From contig JAJDZZ010000026.1 in assembly GCA_022824405.1 (NCBI GenBank), positions 1-64,000 of the forward strand: a stretch of DNA of 64,000 bases, written 5' to 3'. The DNA is from Opitutales bacterium (GTDB lineage: Bacteria > Verrucomicrobiota > Verrucomicrobiia > Opitutales > UBA2995). The notes below the pieces were generated by a model that worked only from the letters and a program-made list of their open reading frames with translations, was not told the DNA's origin and ran no database searches. Made by a program: the position numbers and the translations under genes. Of the stretch, positions 32,394 to 38,738 are shown piece by piece. Each line of letters begins with the position of its first letter. The stretch's first letter is position 1.

Positions 32394-33020
32394 CTAGGGA
32401 GTGGGGTTTCCGTCGGTCGGGGCGCTGACCACGACCTCGTTGTCGAAATAAATGGAAACCGGGTCAGGGGTTGTTGCAGCCACGGGTCCACGCCGGGGTA
32501 GGGGGCTTGGGGAGGCCGTAGAAGTGGCCGCGGGAGTAACTTGGATACCGAGGATTTCAGAGGCTTCGATGGCTCCCGATACCGTGGCGCCGGCAATTAT
32601 CGAGGCCACATCCCCTCCCATTTCCTCCTTGATTCTCGTCACCAGGCGGGCGGCGACATCGGCCGAATACCAATCCGAGGCCAAGTGGACAATACACAGC
32701 TTTGCCGAAATTTTGGCGCCCAGATAGACCGAATCATAGGCGAAATCTTTCAGTTGGTTCAAGATGGTGCGGTGAACCTTCAGTAGTTCATTGGCATCCA
32801 TGGATTCGGGCAGGTAGAGTTGGGACAGACATCCTTCCAGCGCTTCCTCATTCTCTGGGAATTGGGAGATGCAATCTGCCACCTGGTTTGCCCTGGCCAA
32901 ATTGAGAGGGAAGGAAAAAAACAGGACGGAAACGAGGGCAAAGGGGATGGGCCCTATTGAAAACTTCCCTCTGAGATCCCATCTGTAATGTATCACTGCT
33001 TTGCTGGCTAACTTCGTCAA
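32394..33020 (-). CDS. Hypothetical exported protein
   Basis: 208 residues, not recognised. A hydrophobic segment at about 28-44 (FALVSVLFFSFPLNLARA) after a basic N-terminus looks like a signal peptide or anchor. The mature part has C-x(n)-C pairs near its start (DCISQFPENEEALEGCLSQ), a helical middle (KVHRTILNQLKDFAYDSVYLGAKISAKLCIVHLASDW) and a Pro/Ala/Ser-rich C-terminus of about 45 residues, probably disordered. The middle contains a Gly/Ala-rich helix (ASIIAGATVSGAIEASEI). It converges with ligA, 15 bp apart, and lies just downstream of the dnaA pair. The start is uncertain. Nothing supports a specific function. Confidence 0.6.
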   Translation of the reverse strand: MTKLASKAVIHYRWDLRGKFSIGPIPFALVSVLFFSFPLNLARANQVADCISQFPENEEALEGCLSQLYLPESMDANELLKVHRTILNQLKDFAYDSVYLGAKISAKLCIVHLASDWYSADVAARLVTRIKEEMGGDVASIIAGATVSGAIEASEILGIQVTPAATSTASPSPLPRRGPVAATTPDPVSIYFDNEVVVSAPTDGNPTP

Positions 33021-33060: not shown

Positions 33061-33546
33061 TCATAAGCCGCGGTTTTGCAACAAGGCGCTCAATTCTTTC
33101 TGAAACGCCTCCAAATCATCCTCAGTGGGTTGGTATCCCTCCTTCTCGGCATTCAAGACCAACCGCCCGATCTGGTCCAAAGCCCATTCGGCCGTATTTC
33201 CATCGGAAAAAGTCACCTCTCCACCGGCCACGGCTCCGGGCCGGTTGATGGGGTGCAGGCTTACCCTCACCTTGCCTCTCCCGGTCTCGGCAGCGGCAAA
33301 ATCAACCCTTTCGTCTCCTTGCCCTACTTCTTCCAAATTCTCATGAGCCGTTTGGGAAAATTCGGAATCGACCGGCTTGGGTTGGGAAAGCAAATCCAGG
33401 TTCAAATCGTCCAGCAGAAAGCGGGTTTCCATGTAAGTAATGGAAATGCCAAAGACTTCGTTCAGGCGCCGTTGAATCTCGCCCAACTTGAGTCCCTCGG
33501 CCACCCATCCGGATAAAACCTCTTTCTGGGAGTTGCTCAACTCCAT
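33061..33546 (-). CDS. Small HTH-like protein coupled to dnaA
   Basis: 161 residues, family not recognised. Residues 1-50 (LSGWVAEGLKLGEIQRRLNEVFG) resemble a helix-turn-helix of the recombinase/transposase or sigma-region-4 type. A glutamate-rich linker follows, then a compact beta-rich domain (KVRVSLHPINRPGAVAGGEVTFSDGNTAEWALDQIG) and a C-terminal helix. The ATG lies one nucleotide after the dnaA stop, so translation is almost certainly coupled. An in-frame extension to 33687 would lie inside dnaA and is not credible. The context points to a role near replication initiation, as DNA-binding partner or regulator of DnaA; this is inference. Confidence 0.75.
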   Translation of the reverse strand: MELSNSQKEVLSGWVAEGLKLGEIQRRLNEVFGISITYMETRFLLDDLNLDLLSQPKPVDSEFSQTAHENLEEVGQGDERVDFAAAETGRGKVRVSLHPINRPGAVAGGEVTFSDGNTAEWALDQIGRLVLNAEKEGYQPTEDDLEAFQKELSALLQNRGL

Positions 33547-33547
33547 T

Positions 33548-34951
33548 TCAACCCTTGGATTTTGCCAGTTGGGTCTTGAGGTATTCCACGCTACGGCGGG
33601 TGGATTCGTCCTGATCCATGATATTTTCCACCGTTTTGCAGGCGTGGATGACCGTCCCATGATCCCGTCCGCCAAAGGCTTCACCAATTTCCTTGAGGGG
33701 ATGACTGGTCAGGATTCGGCTCAAGTACATGGCAATTTGCCTGGGAAAAACGATGTTGGCCGGGCGGCGCCGACTCACCATGTCGGAAAGACGGAGGTTG
33801 AAGAAATGGGTGACCCGTTTCTGAATTTTCTCGATCGTCACCTGATTCTGGGCTTCCTCCTGCAGGATGTCGCTTAGGAGTTGTTCCGCCACTTCCAGGT
33901 TTACCTCCTTGGCCATCAGAGCTGAGTAACTGGCCACCCGGGTCAGGGCCCCTTCGAGACGGCGAATATTCCGCGACACGTGTTCGGCAATAAATTGAAG
34001 GACATCCGGGGGTAATTGAATTCCCAGCAATTTCATCTTATTGGTCAAAATGGCGATTCGGGTTTCAAGGTCCGGCGCCTGCATGTCGGAGACCAATCCC
34101 CACTGGAACCGCGAAACCAGCCGACTCTCCAATTTGGCTATTTCTCCGGCCGGCCGGTCGCTGGTAAGGAAGATCTGGTTTCCGGATTCGAAGAGGTCGT
34201 TGAAAGTGTGAAAGAATTCCTCCTGGATCCTTTCCTTTCCGCTGAGAAAATGGATGTCATCGATCAGGAGGACATCCACACTGCGGTAACGCTTGCGAAA
34301 CTTTACCAGGGTATTCTCCTGGATGGCCCGAATAAATTCGTTGGTAAATTTTTCAGTGGAGACATAGGCTACCTTGGCCCGGCGGTTTTTCTTTGAAATG
34401 AAGTGCCCCACCGAATGCATGAGATGGGTTTTTCCCAGACCGGTGTCACCGTAGATGAATAGGGGGTTGTAAGCTCTCCCCGGGGAATTGCTGATGGCCA
34501 CCGCTGCGGCATGGGCCAGGTTGTTGTTTGCTCCAACTACAAAATTCTCAAATGTATTTTTCGGATTGAGGATATTGCCGATGGTGGGTGAGGTTTCCGG
34601 AAACCGGTTCACCCCGGGCGCGTCCTCTTCGGTTCGCCCTAATTCCCGGGCATCCCGGTTGCGTTCCAATTCCAATTCCCGCCTCCGGTTATTTGTTTCC
34701 GATACCTCCAACGAGACCTTGATAGGGTGTCCCGCCACGACACGGATCTCATCCGAGATAAGATCGAGGTAGTTGTCCTCAACCCAGATGGATGAAAAAT
34801 TATCGGGTACGCTCAGGACGACTTTGGTATCGGTTTGCCGCAGACAGTGAATGGGCTTGAACCACATGTTGTAGACATCGCCCTCGAATTTCCCTTTCAG
34901 TTCGGGTTTTACGACATCCCACAGGGTCTGAACTTTGGAAAATTTTGCCAT
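33548..34951 (-). CDS. dnaA: Chromosomal replication initiator DnaA
   Basis: 467-residue AAA+ initiator that melts oriC. The N-terminal DnaB/HU interaction domain is followed by a linker and the AAA+ core: Walker A GDTGLGKTHL and Walker B VLLIDDIHFLSGKERIQEEF. The C-terminal DNA-binding domain holds the DnaA signature GGRDHGTVIHACKTVENI. An upstream in-frame TTG at 34960 exists, but the ATG at 34951 matches the family start. The ribosome site is weak (GGAAATT). DnaA boxes occur in the spacer directly upstream. The next gene downstream starts one nucleotide after the stop. dnaN and recF, the usual partners, are not adjacent. Confidence 0.97.
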   Translation of the reverse strand: MAKFSKVQTLWDVVKPELKGKFEGDVYNMWFKPIHCLRQTDTKVVLSVPDNFSSIWVEDNYLDLISDEIRVVAGHPIKVSLEVSETNNRRRELELERNRDARELGRTEEDAPGVNRFPETSPTIGNILNPKNTFENFVVGANNNLAHAAAVAISNSPGRAYNPLFIYGDTGLGKTHLMHSVGHFISKKNRRAKVAYVSTEKFTNEFIRAIQENTLVKFRKRYRSVDVLLIDDIHFLSGKERIQEEFFHTFNDLFESGNQIFLTSDRPAGEIAKLESRLVSRFQWGLVSDMQAPDLETRIAILTNKMKLLGIQLPPDVLQFIAEHVSRNIRRLEGALTRVASYSALMAKEVNLEVAEQLLSDILQEEAQNQVTIEKIQKRVTHFFNLRLSDMVSRRRPANIVFPRQIAMYLSRILTSHPLKEIGEAFGGRDHGTVIHACKTVENIMDQDESTRRSVEYLKTQLAKSKG

Positions 34952-35458
34952 AATTTCCAATTCGACTCACAATTATTCACAAGTCGCGAGGATCCCGCGG
35001 GCGGCATAGTGTGGTAGAGAGCGTACGAGTGGGCCCGAGGCAATTAAGGCGTCATTTTGCATTCAGTTAGAAAAATTGAACTACCGGGAAGAGGATGGTG
35101 CTTTAAATAAATTATTGATTGGTAGCAGGTTATAGGAAAAGTGCAGATCGGAATTTAAAAAAACAAGGGAGCAAAAACCAGCTTGGAAGTTTCAGTCCTT
35201 TGATGCTGCCCCCATCGCTTAATGAGGATTGGATTTTTCTTCCCATTTTCAAGACGAACTTTTCCACAACTTATTAACGTTGGTTTGCCAGTAACTTATC
35301 CGAGAAAATTCCTTGCAATTGACGGGGTAATTTTTCAATGCCGGAAGCTTGTCATTACAAGAGGCTTAGAAAATCGGACCAGCGTTTGGAGCCCGCTCGG
35401 AAGCCGTCATTTGGTCCGATGATTTGAGGGATCGACCTCATTTATTAACACAAAAATA
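34952..35458. other. AT-rich spacer with DnaA boxes; candidate oriC
   Basis: A 507-bp spacer between dnaA and hprK with no credible gene. It contains a consensus DnaA box TTATTCACA (34973-34981), a relaxed-consensus box TTTTCCACA (35260-35268), a partial match TTATCCGAG (35296-35304) and an AT-rich stretch around 35100-35165 that could be an unwinding element. The boxes fit dnaA autoregulation or a replication origin. Two good boxes are few for a full oriC. Confidence 0.45.
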
Positions 35459-36427
35459 TTATGAACCGGTTTGTTGAGCCATGTGAGCGAGGAGCCGTTG
35501 GTTGAATTCTCTGGCCGAGTCATGGCCCATAATCCGAGCCGCTTTCACCATGGCGGCAACTTCGACCAGGCGGGCCAGATCCCGGCCGGGGCGAATATAG
35601 AATTCGATGTGCGGCACATCGATGCCGAGGATGTTAAAGTAACTTTGTTCCAACCCGGTACGCTCCTCTTCGTGTTCGGCCGACCACTCCCGAAAGGAGA
35701 CGACCAGATCGATACGTTTTTCCAACCGCACGTTGCGGATTCCGAACAATTCGACCACATTGATAATGCCGATTCCCCGGCATTCCATATAGCCTCGATT
35801 GAGTTCGGAGCTTTGGCCGATGAGTTCGGTTTCGTTTATCAGTTTTACGTAGATGAGATCATCCGCCACCAGGCTGTGACCGCGTTCGATCAGGGCCACT
35901 GCGCATTCGCTTTTACCGATCCCGCTTTTGCCCCTCAACAGGGTGCCGATTCCCCTTATGTCGAGCATGGTGCCGTGTTCGGTTACCTGAGGCGCGAAGG
36001 CGTGATCGAGCAGGACTGTGGCGGTTGTGACGAACTGATTGGAGGCGATGGGCGACCGGAACAAGGGAATGCCGTAACGGTCCGCCGCCTCCACCATGCT
36101 GGGGGTCGGTTCCAGGTTTCGGGTAACGGCCATGCAGGGAATTTTCAGTTTGGCAAATCGATCCAGCATATTGTTCTGCTCGGCCTGGCTCAGCGTCTCC
36201 ATATAGGCCATCTCGCCTGCCCCGAACAATTGCAATCGCCTGGCCCCAAAACAAGTGAGGAAACCGGTCATGGCTATGCCGGGCCGGTTGACACTCTTCT
36301 CCTCGATGACGGTATGCAGCCCCTCTTTTCCAGCCACCAAGGTGAGCTGCAAGGGATCTTTGAACTTCTCATACAAGGTCTGGACTTCGATACCTTGGAC
36401 CAATTTGGGTTGTGCTCGGATATCCAT
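35459..36427 (-). CDS. hprK: HPr kinase/phosphorylase
   Basis: 322-residue bifunctional serine kinase/phosphorylase acting on the phosphocarrier HPr and linking carbon state to regulation. The Walker A motif is LRGKSGIGKSECA, and the conserved HprK signature is MECRGIGIINVVELFG. Residues such as H-S-L-V-A-D-D-L near the nucleotide site are intact. The N-terminal domain (residues 1-130) is of the usual size. It is the last gene of the kdsC-lpt operon, 9 nt after lptB. In gamma-proteobacteria the corresponding place is held by rpoN, hpf and ptsN; here HprK replaces them directly. Confidence 0.96.
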   Translation of the reverse strand: MDIRAQPKLVQGIEVQTLYEKFKDPLQLTLVAGKEGLHTVIEEKSVNRPGIAMTGFLTCFGARRLQLFGAGEMAYMETLSQAEQNNMLDRFAKLKIPCMAVTRNLEPTPSMVEAADRYGIPLFRSPIASNQFVTTATVLLDHAFAPQVTEHGTMLDIRGIGTLLRGKSGIGKSECAVALIERGHSLVADDLIYVKLINETELIGQSSELNRGYMECRGIGIINVVELFGIRNVRLEKRIDLVVSFREWSAEHEEERTGLEQSYFNILGIDVPHIEFYIRPGRDLARLVEVAAMVKAARIMGHDSAREFNQRLLAHMAQQTGS

Positions 36428-36436
36428 CGGCGGTCC

Positions 36437-37168
36437 TCAAAGGTTGAAATTTTCACCCAGATAAAATTCCCGGCTCACTTCGTCATTGGTTAAAAAATTG
36501 CTCGTTCCCTCTCGAAGGACTTGTCCGTTGTGGAGGAGATAGGCACGATTTACAATCCTCAAAGTTTCGCGCACGTTGTGGTCGGTAATCAGGATTCCGA
36601 TTCCTCGTTTGCTCAATTCGAGGACAATTTTCTGAACTTCCGCTACGTTTATGGGGTCTACTCCGCTAAACGGTTCGTCCATGAGGAGAAACTTGGGTTC
36701 CGTGACCAGGGCACGGGAAATTTCCAGCCTGCGTCGCTCACCCCCGCTCAGGGTGTAGGCTTTCTGTTTGGAAAGATGGGTGAGCCCCAGTTCATTGAGG
36801 TGATGGTCGATCCTTTCTTTGCGCAATTTTCTTTTGATGGGCAAGGTGTCGACAATGGCCTTTATGTTATCGTAAACGGACAGGTTTCTGAAGACGGAAG
36901 GTTCTTGGGGGAGATACCCGATGCCCAGTCGGGAGCGCCGGTGCATGGAGTAGCGCGTCACGTCGACCTCGCCTATCGACACCCTGCCACCCGAAACCGG
37001 CACCAGGCCGACGATCATGTAGAAGGTGGTGGTTTTCCCCGCGCCGTTGGGACCGAGCAAACCCACTACCTCGCCCGAGGATACCTGGATGTTGACTTTG
37101 TCCACTACTTTACGGCCAGAGTAGCTCTTCTCCAGGTCGAGGGTGGAAATTGTTACCGTTGCGGCCAT
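36437..37168 (-). CDS. lptB: LPS export ABC transporter ATP-binding protein LptB
   Basis: 243-residue cytoplasmic ATPase that powers LPS extraction through LptFG. Walker A is GPNGAGKTTTFYMIVG, the signature is LSGGERRRLEISRAL, and Walker B is FLLMDEPFSGVDPI with switch histidine in LITDHNVRETL. Sequence and length fit LptB rather than amino-acid transporters of the same clan. It is 6 nt after the LptA-like gene and 9 nt before hprK. LptF and LptG are not in this window and must be encoded elsewhere. Confidence 0.95.
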   Translation of the reverse strand: MAATVTISTLDLEKSYSGRKVVDKVNIQVSSGEVVGLLGPNGAGKTTTFYMIVGLVPVSGGRVSIGEVDVTRYSMHRRSRLGIGYLPQEPSVFRNLSVYDNIKAIVDTLPIKRKLRKERIDHHLNELGLTHLSKQKAYTLSGGERRRLEISRALVTEPKFLLMDEPFSGVDPINVAEVQKIVLELSKRGIGILITDHNVRETLRIVNRAYLLHNGQVLREGTSNFLTNDEVSREFYLGENFNL

Positions 37169-37174
37169 TTCCGC

Positions 37175-37741
37175 TCAATTCCGCCCATTGGATTCGGCTT
37201 GGTCGTCCGCCGTTTCATCGGGAGCTTCGGGATCGGGACCCAAATCCGGTAAATTGGGAAGGGTGACCTTGACCCGTTGTTCCCCTCCCCGGACCAAGGC
37301 GCGGCGCTGACCGTGAAACCATTCAATTTCCGTTCCCGAAACCGTTCCCTGGGCATCCGTTACCACGGGTCTTTCAGTCAACAATACCTTCCCCTCTTCG
37401 GGAAAGAATTCGGCCCGGCCTCCCGACGCGGAACGACCTTTTTGTTCCACGCGCACATTTCCGATGGCAATGATCTCGGTCACTTTCCCAATCCTGCCGA
37501 TCGTATCGCTGGGATCGCCTCGCTTGACGGAGGTAATATGCAGCTCATCGCAAGTCAGGCGGAGGTTGGTGCCGACCACTTGAACCCGGCCGGCAATGTG
37601 AAATTCGGACCTTTCATCCCCACTCAACATTTCCAGGCGATCTCCCGTTATCACCGTATCGGTCGTCCCCCCCATCTCTAGTGCCCGGACCGTGGGGAGC
37701 AGGCCCAAAAGAGTCAGGAGGGTAATAAAAAACTTCCTCAT
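37175..37741 (-). CDS. lptA: LptA/OstA-like periplasmic LPS bridge protein
   Basis: 188 residues with a signal peptide (MRKFFITLLTLLGLLPTVRA). The OstA-like beta-jellyroll repeats appear as TDTVITGDRLEMLSG, SEFHIAGRVQVVGTNLRLTCDEL and TEIIAIGNVRVEQKGRSASGGRAEFF, with a last strand RALVRGGEQRVKVTLP. The acidic C-terminal tail (PDPEAPDETADDQAE) is an extra compared with E. coli LptA. It would form the periplasmic bridge carrying LPS to LptD. The ATG overlaps the lptC stop by 4 bp. Identification relies on fold pattern plus the kdsC-lptC-lptA-lptB order. Confidence 0.85.
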   Translation of the reverse strand: MRKFFITLLTLLGLLPTVRALEMGGTTDTVITGDRLEMLSGDERSEFHIAGRVQVVGTNLRLTCDELHITSVKRGDPSDTIGRIGKVTEIIAIGNVRVEQKGRSASGGRAEFFPEEGKVLLTERPVVTDAQGTVSGTEIEWFHGQRRALVRGGEQRVKVTLPNLPDLGPDPEAPDETADDQAESNGRN

Positions 37742-38193
37742 TTGAAAAAGGGTTCCATTTCGTAGTCTAAAACAACTTTTACATTCTCACTCACCTGGAT
37801 GAGCCGGGCTTGCTGGTCATACCTCCATTCTTCCCCTTCTATGGTAAAGTCTTCGGAAACCACTTTGACCCCCCGATCTCCGAACAACAATTTGTTTTGG
37901 CTGAGATAAGTGGCGTTGTCTCCAACCATGCGGAAATCCAGTTGGTTTTGTTCCTCCCCCGTATAAACCTCCAAATCCAACCCCTTCATGTCGACTTGCC
38001 CCTCCTCCCGGTGGGCGGCGGAATTTCCGGTCAGGAACCAAATTTTATAACCCAGATCGTTAAACATGGTGACCCTGAAACCTTCTACGGGAGCATCGGG
38101 CACGATTTGAGAACTCAGGTAAACTCCTCCGGCCAGGGCCAGAGGAAGCAAAGCGAACCACGATTTGTCCGGGAAGCGGATTTTGAGGTGCAT
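37738..38193 (-). CDS. lptC: LptC-like LPS export protein
   Basis: 151-residue membrane-anchored protein: one N-terminal transmembrane helix (WFALLPLALAGGVYLSSQIV) followed by a periplasmic beta-rich domain. Repeated strands such as FRVTMFNDLGYKIWFLTGNSA, MKGLDLEVYTGEEQNQLDFRM and GVKVVSEDFTIEGEEWRYD resemble LptC. It would accept LPS from LptBFG and hand it to LptA. Sequence identity alone would be weak evidence; its place between kdsC and lptA, with TGATG overlap to kdsC and ATGA overlap to lptA, makes the assignment good. Confidence 0.82.
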   Translation of the reverse strand: MHLKIRFPDKSWFALLPLALAGGVYLSSQIVPDAPVEGFRVTMFNDLGYKIWFLTGNSAAHREEGQVDMKGLDLEVYTGEEQNQLDFRMVGDNATYLSQNKLLFGDRGVKVVSEDFTIEGEEWRYDQQARLIQVSENVKVVLDYEMEPFFK

Positions 38194-38738
38194 CAGGATT
38201 TATGGGATAGAGCTAAGACGCTATGGTTACGACTTTCAAGTATTCGGTCGCACACTTGGCGAACTGCCCCCTTGCCACCATCCCTGTCGGTGGTCCAGTC
38301 GGCCCATTGCAAAGCCAGTGGGTCCCCATCCGCCACGGTAATCCCAATGCCGGCATACCTAATGGCGGGGACGTCGATCACATCGTCTCCCACGTAGCAG
38401 ATCTCTTCCGGAGCCAATTTCAATTGGCCGGCCAGTTCCTCCAGGGCTGTGCCTTTGTCCTTCCTCCCCTGGATGATGTGGTGAAAGCGCAGTTCGGTCA
38501 TGCGGGAGGTGGTGGCGGCGGACAAGCGACCCGAAATGACGGCGAGGATCACCCCGGCCTTTCTCAGGCACACCAACCCCAGGCCATCCAGGACGGAAAA
38601 TTGTTTCAGTTCGAATCCATCCGGACCCGTAAAGATGGTTCCATCCGTGAGCACGCCGTCCACGTCGAGGGCGAGCAGCTTGATTTTACGCCACTCCAAT
38701 TCGGACGGAGGGGTGGGGTGCGAATTTTTTTCTCCCAT
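38193..38738 (-). CDS. kdsC: KDO 8-phosphate phosphatase KdsC
   Basis: 181-residue HAD phosphatase of the KdsC type that removes phosphate from KDO-8-P in LPS core synthesis. HAD motif I is LLALDVDGVLTDGT, motif II is AVISGRLS, motif III K (GRKDKGTALEEL), and motif IV is CYVGDDVIDVPAI. No cap domain, as usual for KdsC. It starts 3 nt after the E1 gene's stop and its own stop overlaps the lptC start. Presence confirms a KDO-containing LPS and hence a Gram-negative envelope. Confidence 0.93.
   Translation of the reverse strand: MGEKNSHPTPPSELEWRKIKLLALDVDGVLTDGTIFTGPDGFELKQFSVLDGLGLVCLRKAGVILAVISGRLSAATTSRMTELRFHHIIQGRKDKGTALEELAGQLKLAPEEICYVGDDVIDVPAIRYAGIGITVADGDPLALQWADWTTDRDGGKGAVRQVCDRILESRNHSVLALSHKS

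Follow-up and report, generated by a model that had tools for sequence, protein, structure and literature searches.

Known regulators of DnaA include Hda, DiaA, YabA, and SeqA. Other described proteins each resemble, in one respect or another, the protein considered here. The HTH_33 domain (PF13592) is a winged helix-turn-helix of IS630-type transposases. GcrA, a cell-cycle regulator of alphaproteobacteria, consists of an amino-terminal helix-turn-helix, a linker, and a small carboxyl-terminal part. CT421.2, a signature protein of the PVC superphylum, is conserved and of unknown function; its length is given as 53 to more than 80 residues in PMC3444138. DciA is a small protein; in many phyla its gene is part of the replication operon or close to it, according to PMC5109545.

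The gene described here lies directly behind dnaA in a window (the whole stretch of DNA analysed, 64,000 nucleotides) from the draft genome of an Opitutales bacterium (3.39 Mb in 92 contigs). A preliminary description had placed a 161-residue protein one nucleotide after the dnaA stop codon, and both the translation (33061-33546, minus strand) and the TGA-1 nt-ATG sequence confirm it. The features of the locus are as follows.

33061..33546, minus strand: coding sequence of the uncharacterised protein (161 residues plus stop), from its translation, its family across the phylum, and a dN/dS of 0.14

33547..33547, minus strand: 1-nt spacer from the dnaA stop codon (TGA) to the ATG of the coupled gene, from the sequence; this spacing is kept in 8/8 genomes of the family-level group f1

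33548..34951, minus strand: dnaA (467 residues plus stop), from the Pfam domains Bac_DnaA, Bac_DnaA_C, and DnaA_N

34952..35458, no strand assigned: hprK-dnaA spacer (507 bases), the presumed promoter region of the dnaA pair, with two DnaA-box-like sites

Together, the constant spacing within f1, the purifying selection on the protein, and the profile matches in 140 of 194 phylum genomes place this arrangement beyond chance.

The two DnaA-box-like sites (TTWTNCACA; 34973-34981 and 35260-35268) both fall within the hprK-dnaA spacer. The window holds three such matches in its 64 kb, which is the chance expectation, so only the clustering of two in the spacer is informative. Nine sites lie one mismatch from TTATCCACA, two of them in the same spacer. 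The pair of DnaA-box-like sites hints at DnaA autoregulation, or at an origin near dnaA.

Upstream of dnaA (35459-38738, minus strand) are genes for an HPr kinase, an ABC-transporter ATPase (LptB-like by context), LptA/LptD_N-type and LptC-type proteins, and a HAD hydrolase. Neighbourhood clustering finds clusters c4, c2, and c3 in the same order across many relatives. On the other side, 40 nt downstream of the coupled gene and on the same strand, a gene at 32394-33020 (minus strand) encodes a protein of 208 residues that has no Pfam match and whose start, by eye, resembles a signal peptide; this may be a third gene of the transcript.

The preliminary description also envisaged a helix-turn-helix-like amino terminus and a compact beta-structured carboxyl-terminal half. 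Both stand: a three-helix model, weak matches to helix-turn-helix models, and a profile comparison agree on the former, and models of the whole protein and of the carboxyl-terminal domain alone bear out the latter. Absent from that description was the low-confidence linker (residues 56-89) that divides the two. The protein thus has three parts.

33382..33546, minus strand: N-terminal HTH-like domain, residues 1-55 (helices 5-16, 21-32, and 38-47; helix 3 acidic), from the AlphaFold2 model, comparison with the IS630 HTH_33 profile, and charge

33274..33381, minus strand: acidic linker, residues 56-91, from pLDDT <50 at residues 56-89 and a dN/dS of 0.60

33064..33273, minus strand: C-terminal beta4-alpha domain, residues 92-161 (PG, FSDG, W, GR, and P...FQ motifs), from the models and conserved columns

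The AlphaFold2 model (52 sequences, mean pLDDT 78.6) predicts, beyond the three amino-terminal helices, four strands between residues 94 and 133 and a helix at 142-158; modelled alone, the carboxyl-terminal domain adopts the same beta4-alpha plan (pLDDT 83.1, pTM 0.69). The evidence for the predicted anatomy is strong. The underlying alignment, A1, takes in 52 of 54 loci, omitting L002 (in-frame stop) and L040 (nearly identical to L039). Twelve residues are invariant in these 52 members: Q7, W14, Q25, R42, L44, G109, F113, D115, W121, G127, P140, and F148.

The protein is under purifying selection, with the constraint residing in the two domains and relaxed in the linker: against a congener (G001), dN/dS is 0.14 overall, 0.11 in the amino-terminal domain, 0.60 in the linker, and 0.04 in the carboxyl-terminal domain, all from small counts. 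The congener's own copy (L002) contains one in-frame stop between the linker and the carboxyl-terminal domain, and the part behind the stop is the most constrained (dN/dS 0.04). Intact copies occur elsewhere, and the stop is probably a sequencing error or a very recent event. Both domains are present in all 140 loci that were read with long flanks (L055-L194, a few genomes being present twice). Three of these loci have a second carboxyl-terminal domain in tandem, which makes this domain a unit of its own; the tandem beta4-alpha pairs (L165, L172, and L174) belong to family-level group f51. Family members, at about 140-280 residues and with two domains, are longer than CT421.2, a comparison made by length alone, as given in PMC3444138; the two have in common that each is a conserved protein of the same superphylum.

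The preliminary description did not recognise the family, and library searches agree. The window protein has no match in Pfam or NCBIfam at E values up to 10, and weak matches at best in PHROGs, PADLOC, and PDB sequences, or when profiles are compared with the PDB; a PHROG tail-fibre match (0.095) was set aside. Nor does it contain, at E values up to 10, the Pfam domains of Hda, DiaA, YabA, or SeqA. The 52 members give weak matches, the best at 0.001: in Pfam, PF05887 (0.001, one member, of acidic-repeat type), DUF6264 (0.0041, one), and HTH_33 (0.014, three); in NCBIfam, floc_PepA (0.0028, one) and IS630 (0.0087, six). Literature searches found no mention of the protein, including in the accessible parts of PMC3444138, PMC12283558, and PMC5109545. 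For Verrucomicrobium spinosum, PMC12283558 describes targeted mutagenesis and, as Data S5, a table of transposon-based gene essentiality.

For the amino-terminal domain, the best library matches of the consensus are all weak helix-turn-helix models (HTH_32, 0.023; HTH_38, 0.048; IS630, 0.0084; YlxM, 0.04), followed by two DUFs at 0.15 and 0.16. Compared by hhalign with the IS630-type HTH_33 domains of relatives (an alignment built from 12 of 20 fetched loci), it aligns over 53 columns with a probability of 93.6 and a score of 38.3; among 42 control gene clusters the top score was 24.5, and the reversed domain scored 11.9. Other helix-turn-helix domains gave lower probabilities: GcrA, 77.3 over 29 columns; HTH_23, 45.9; and sigma region 4, 0.2. 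Because single-target hhalign probabilities are uncalibrated, the ranking is what we rely on; this, together with the partial GcrA and HTH_23 matches, leaves kinship specifically to IS630 short of established. The likeness to HTH_33 consists in the 53-column alignment and a long turn between helices 2 and 3. Set against it, the consensus scores 15.6 bits where the NCBIfam IS630 cut-off is 100, and no Pfam model matched; helix 3 is acidic in the window protein and basic in the transposases; and the window protein, with 161 residues and a single-copy gene, has no catalytic transposase domain detectable in Pfam or NCBIfam.

The likeness to GcrA lies in size and plan, together with a weak match confined to the first half of the helix-turn-helix. 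The carboxyl-terminal domains, by contrast, are unrelated (probability 0.2 against five GcrA sequences), and the CKWPIGDP-like motif of those five sequences is missing from the new family; for the carboxyl-terminal domain, then, homology to GcrA was rejected. Derivation from DnaA was also rejected (amino-terminal domain, probability 12.4 over 23 columns; carboxyl-terminal domain, 0.4).

Fold searches with the whole model and the carboxyl-terminal domain alone against the PDB, and with the whole model against viral models, returned nothing at E 0.001 or better. The nearest structural neighbours of the carboxyl-terminal domain are a polo-box (Z 5.6, rmsd 3.0, 64 aligned), an RsaM homologue (Z 5.2, rmsd 3.7, 70 aligned), and SpoVG (Z 4.8, rmsd 4.2, 65 aligned). 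These are tied, with Z below 8 (too low to mean more than a shared general arrangement), 8-13% identity, and no Foldseek match under E 0.1, and are no evidence of kinship. In the family searches, matches of the carboxyl-terminal domain to flagellin (0.02), MORN, and UVR8 are short beta-hairpin matches. The helix-turn-helix is thus a known domain type, and the family as a whole, with its acidic helix 3 and its carboxyl-terminal domain, matched nothing in the libraries searched.

The family occurs in 140 of 194 sampled phylum genomes when searched with a single sequence, and again in 140 of 194 with a profile. Presence is bimodal: the weakest positive genome stands at E 5e-20, and the rest have nothing at 0.001. 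There is one gene per genome; where the profile matches twice, both matches fall at one place and represent split or tandem domains. The motif TYMDVRFL, sought in 84,980 species, yielded 298 stretches, 297 of them confirmed. Among the best 80 of the 297, record titles name Verrucomicrobia, Lentisphaerae, Kiritimatiellae, the PVC group, or taxa within these, and two say just 'bacterium'. The family is conserved and single-copy in Verrucomicrobiota, the phylum being taken broadly enough to cover the Lentisphaerae and Kiritimatiellae records among those 80. Phage and plasmid records gave no family match. One viral contig (L232) carries a fragment of the carboxyl-terminal domain at its edge, beside phage-type genes; the contig may be a chimera or include the edge of a host sequence, or it may stem from a prophage that integrated close to the gene.

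Within the order, 74 of 88 genomes have the family by profile search. Directly behind dnaA and on the same strand is where the gene lies in 51 of these 74, representing 20 of 22 family-level groups, and the link to dnaA appears to be a trait at the level of the order. The arrangement is missing from 23 genomes of 8 families. In 14 of these the two genes are on different contigs, where an assembly break is possible, and in 9 they share a contig; in three of the 9 the genes lie close by even so, two pairs being on the same strand 1.2 and 2.2 kb apart and the third convergent with some 120 nt between. Thirty order loci were fetched and DnaA positions placed by tblastn. The gene follows dnaA immediately and co-directionally in 26, is convergent with it in one, and has no dnaA within 1.5 kb in three. 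In 15 of the 30, the two genes overlap or are at most 6 nt apart. The preliminary description expected the coupling to give near-stoichiometric amounts of the protein and DnaA; at the other 15 loci either the gap is longer than 6 nt or this kind of linkage is missing. The upstream gene of the pair belongs to cluster c4 (like the HPr kinase of the window, by eye) or to another cluster, c12, and the pair stays linked with either. Two family-level groups, f16 and f19 (9 genomes), show no link at all, and their DnaA, at 37-49% identity to that of the window, diverges more than any other sampled in the order (53% or more elsewhere). The unlinked genomes with divergent DnaA are G022, G025, G178, G204, G226, G235, G246, G247, and G258.

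The preliminary description had named two findings that would speak against it, absence from beside dnaA in relatives and membership of a known unrelated family; neither holds as a rule within the order.

Together, these features lead us to propose, tentatively and at rather less than even confidence, that the protein is an acidic protein-binding adaptor, in which a flexible acidic linker joins an HTH_33-like domain to a beta4-alpha domain, and that it is encoded behind dnaA in the window's order. The amino-terminal domain would keep the helix-turn-helix fold, lack a basic DNA-reading helix, and dock onto a protein, which most likely belongs to the machinery of transcription or replication. 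The carboxyl-terminal domain would use its conserved turns (FSDG, D..GR) to hold a second partner or a ligand; with no significant structural match for this domain, that role is a guess. The flexible linker would let the two domains grip two partners. In the window's order, the dnaA transcript would set the dose of the protein: the gene lies behind dnaA, in many members near enough for translational coupling, and its amount may therefore follow that of DnaA. Both the adaptor role and the transcript shared with dnaA are inferred. DnaA is the obvious first candidate partner here; the phylum-wide record favours a more general one.

The proposal that DNA is not the target comes from charge. Helix 3 (residues 38-47) has a net charge of -1 or -2 in the matched columns of all 52 members. 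In the IS630 domains, the columns aligned to helix 3 are at +1 to +3 in 11 of 12 and at 0 in one. Canonical DNA reading by the helix-turn-helix is therefore unlikely, judged by charge alone. Median net charges are -4.5 for the amino-terminal domain, -5.5 for the linker, and -12 for the whole protein; the pI of the window protein is 4.5. These values weigh against the alternative that comes closest, a DNA-binding regulator (a transcription factor or small nucleoid protein) whose helix-turn-helix reads DNA while the carboxyl-terminal domain dimerises or senses a ligand. So does the model, which after helix 3 shows no wing, just the low-confidence acidic linker. The alternative draws on the HTH-like model, the profile similarity to the DNA-binding HTH_33 domain, and R42, an arginine within helix 3 that is invariant in the 52 members. 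Moreover, acidic proteins can bind DNA through local basic patches. On balance we consider such a regulator rather unlikely, if the best of the competing explanations.

Beyond the order, the fetched loci lack the link to dnaA. None of these 52 loci has a DnaA match nearby; these are a subset of 106 matching non-order genomes, fetched with flanks of up to 6 kb each side, less at contig ends. The dnaA adjacency that the preliminary description wished to see checked in relatives holds in 51 of 74 genomes inside the order and in none of these 52 loci outside it. Two loci titled Akkermansia muciniphila have dnaA upstream, at 156 nt (L128) and 3.0 kb (L100), and run counter to a strictly order-bound link. 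Their best family match is a member of the Opitutales family f13, so we take the titles to be probable misnomers. Family-level group f28, taken for Akkermansia, has no nearby DnaA match in six genomes fetched from its main genus, g48.

Outside the order the neighbours vary by lineage, and neighbourhood clustering shows no common theme. The gene immediately downstream encodes a HAD-type (sucrose-phosphatase-like) hydrolase in 18 loci (with two genomes represented twice), many of them titled Lentisphaerae or Kiritimatiellae (L069, L076, L077, L088, L148, and 13 more); a Der-type GTPase is upstream in 7, and a ProC-type reductase downstream in 5. Inside the order, a dihydrouridine synthase is beside the gene in 4 loci. 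Such unrelated housekeeping neighbours are what would be expected of a housekeeping protein that has no part in replication, whose gene merely rides behind dnaA and whose beta4-alpha domain is the business end. A mere passenger sits poorly with a linkage that spans 20 of the 22 order families despite the differing upstream cluster, and we regard this explanation as unlikely, a shade more so than DNA binding.

The reverse explanation, put forward in the preliminary description, is that the protein is a dedicated DnaA partner or replication-initiation regulator, binding DnaA or the origin region. Here the order-level linkage, the overlap or close spacing (at most 6 nt) at half of the fetched order loci, and the persistence of the pair whether c4 or c12 lies upstream are all in favour. 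As a general account it finds no support: the arrangement is missing from 23 of 74 order genomes, none of the 52 outside loci has a DnaA match nearby, and ten order genomes have DnaA without a family member. Eight of those ten do not exceed 1.0 Mb. Not all are complete, and in G234 dnaA sits at the end of a contig, so that the absence there may be an assembly gap. The ten indicate that DnaA has no strict requirement for the protein. Among genomes of 1.0 Mb or less the family is kept in 2 of 12, and it tends to be lost as genomes shrink. A dedicated DnaA partner appears distinctly improbable, more so than the passenger.

That the protein replaces the helicase operator DciA in this lineage is scarcely conceivable, even though the window protein shares with DciA its small size and its position near replication genes (PMC5109545): the window protein has no PF05258 match, and DciA itself is found in 34 of 36 relatives (33 over the family cut-off), including all five without the new family and the window genome, where it has a separate gene (G000:C16). 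Since DciA is present, the protein is no replacement helicase loader, and that role is ruled out for the order.

To return to the proposed adaptor, a more daring history can be drawn. An ancient transposase-type helix-turn-helix might have been domesticated early in the phylum, its helix 3 turned acidic, and been fused to a new beta4-alpha domain, giving a widespread control protein for replication or transcription; in Opitutales-type bacteria, translational coupling would then have locked its dose to that of DnaA, making it a lineage-specific initiation regulator. As a whole this chain is a long shot. A role in replication is, by itself, possible.

The family marks a real gap in annotation: it is single-copy in 140 of 194 sampled phylum genomes, gut bacteria included (by record titles), and has no match in the family libraries searched. 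We know of no phylum-specific factor of such a kind controlling DnaA or RNA polymerase, and literature searches showed none. If the protein does control one or the other, it would be the first such factor known to us. The tie to dnaA in one order offers a direct and cheap entry to its function.
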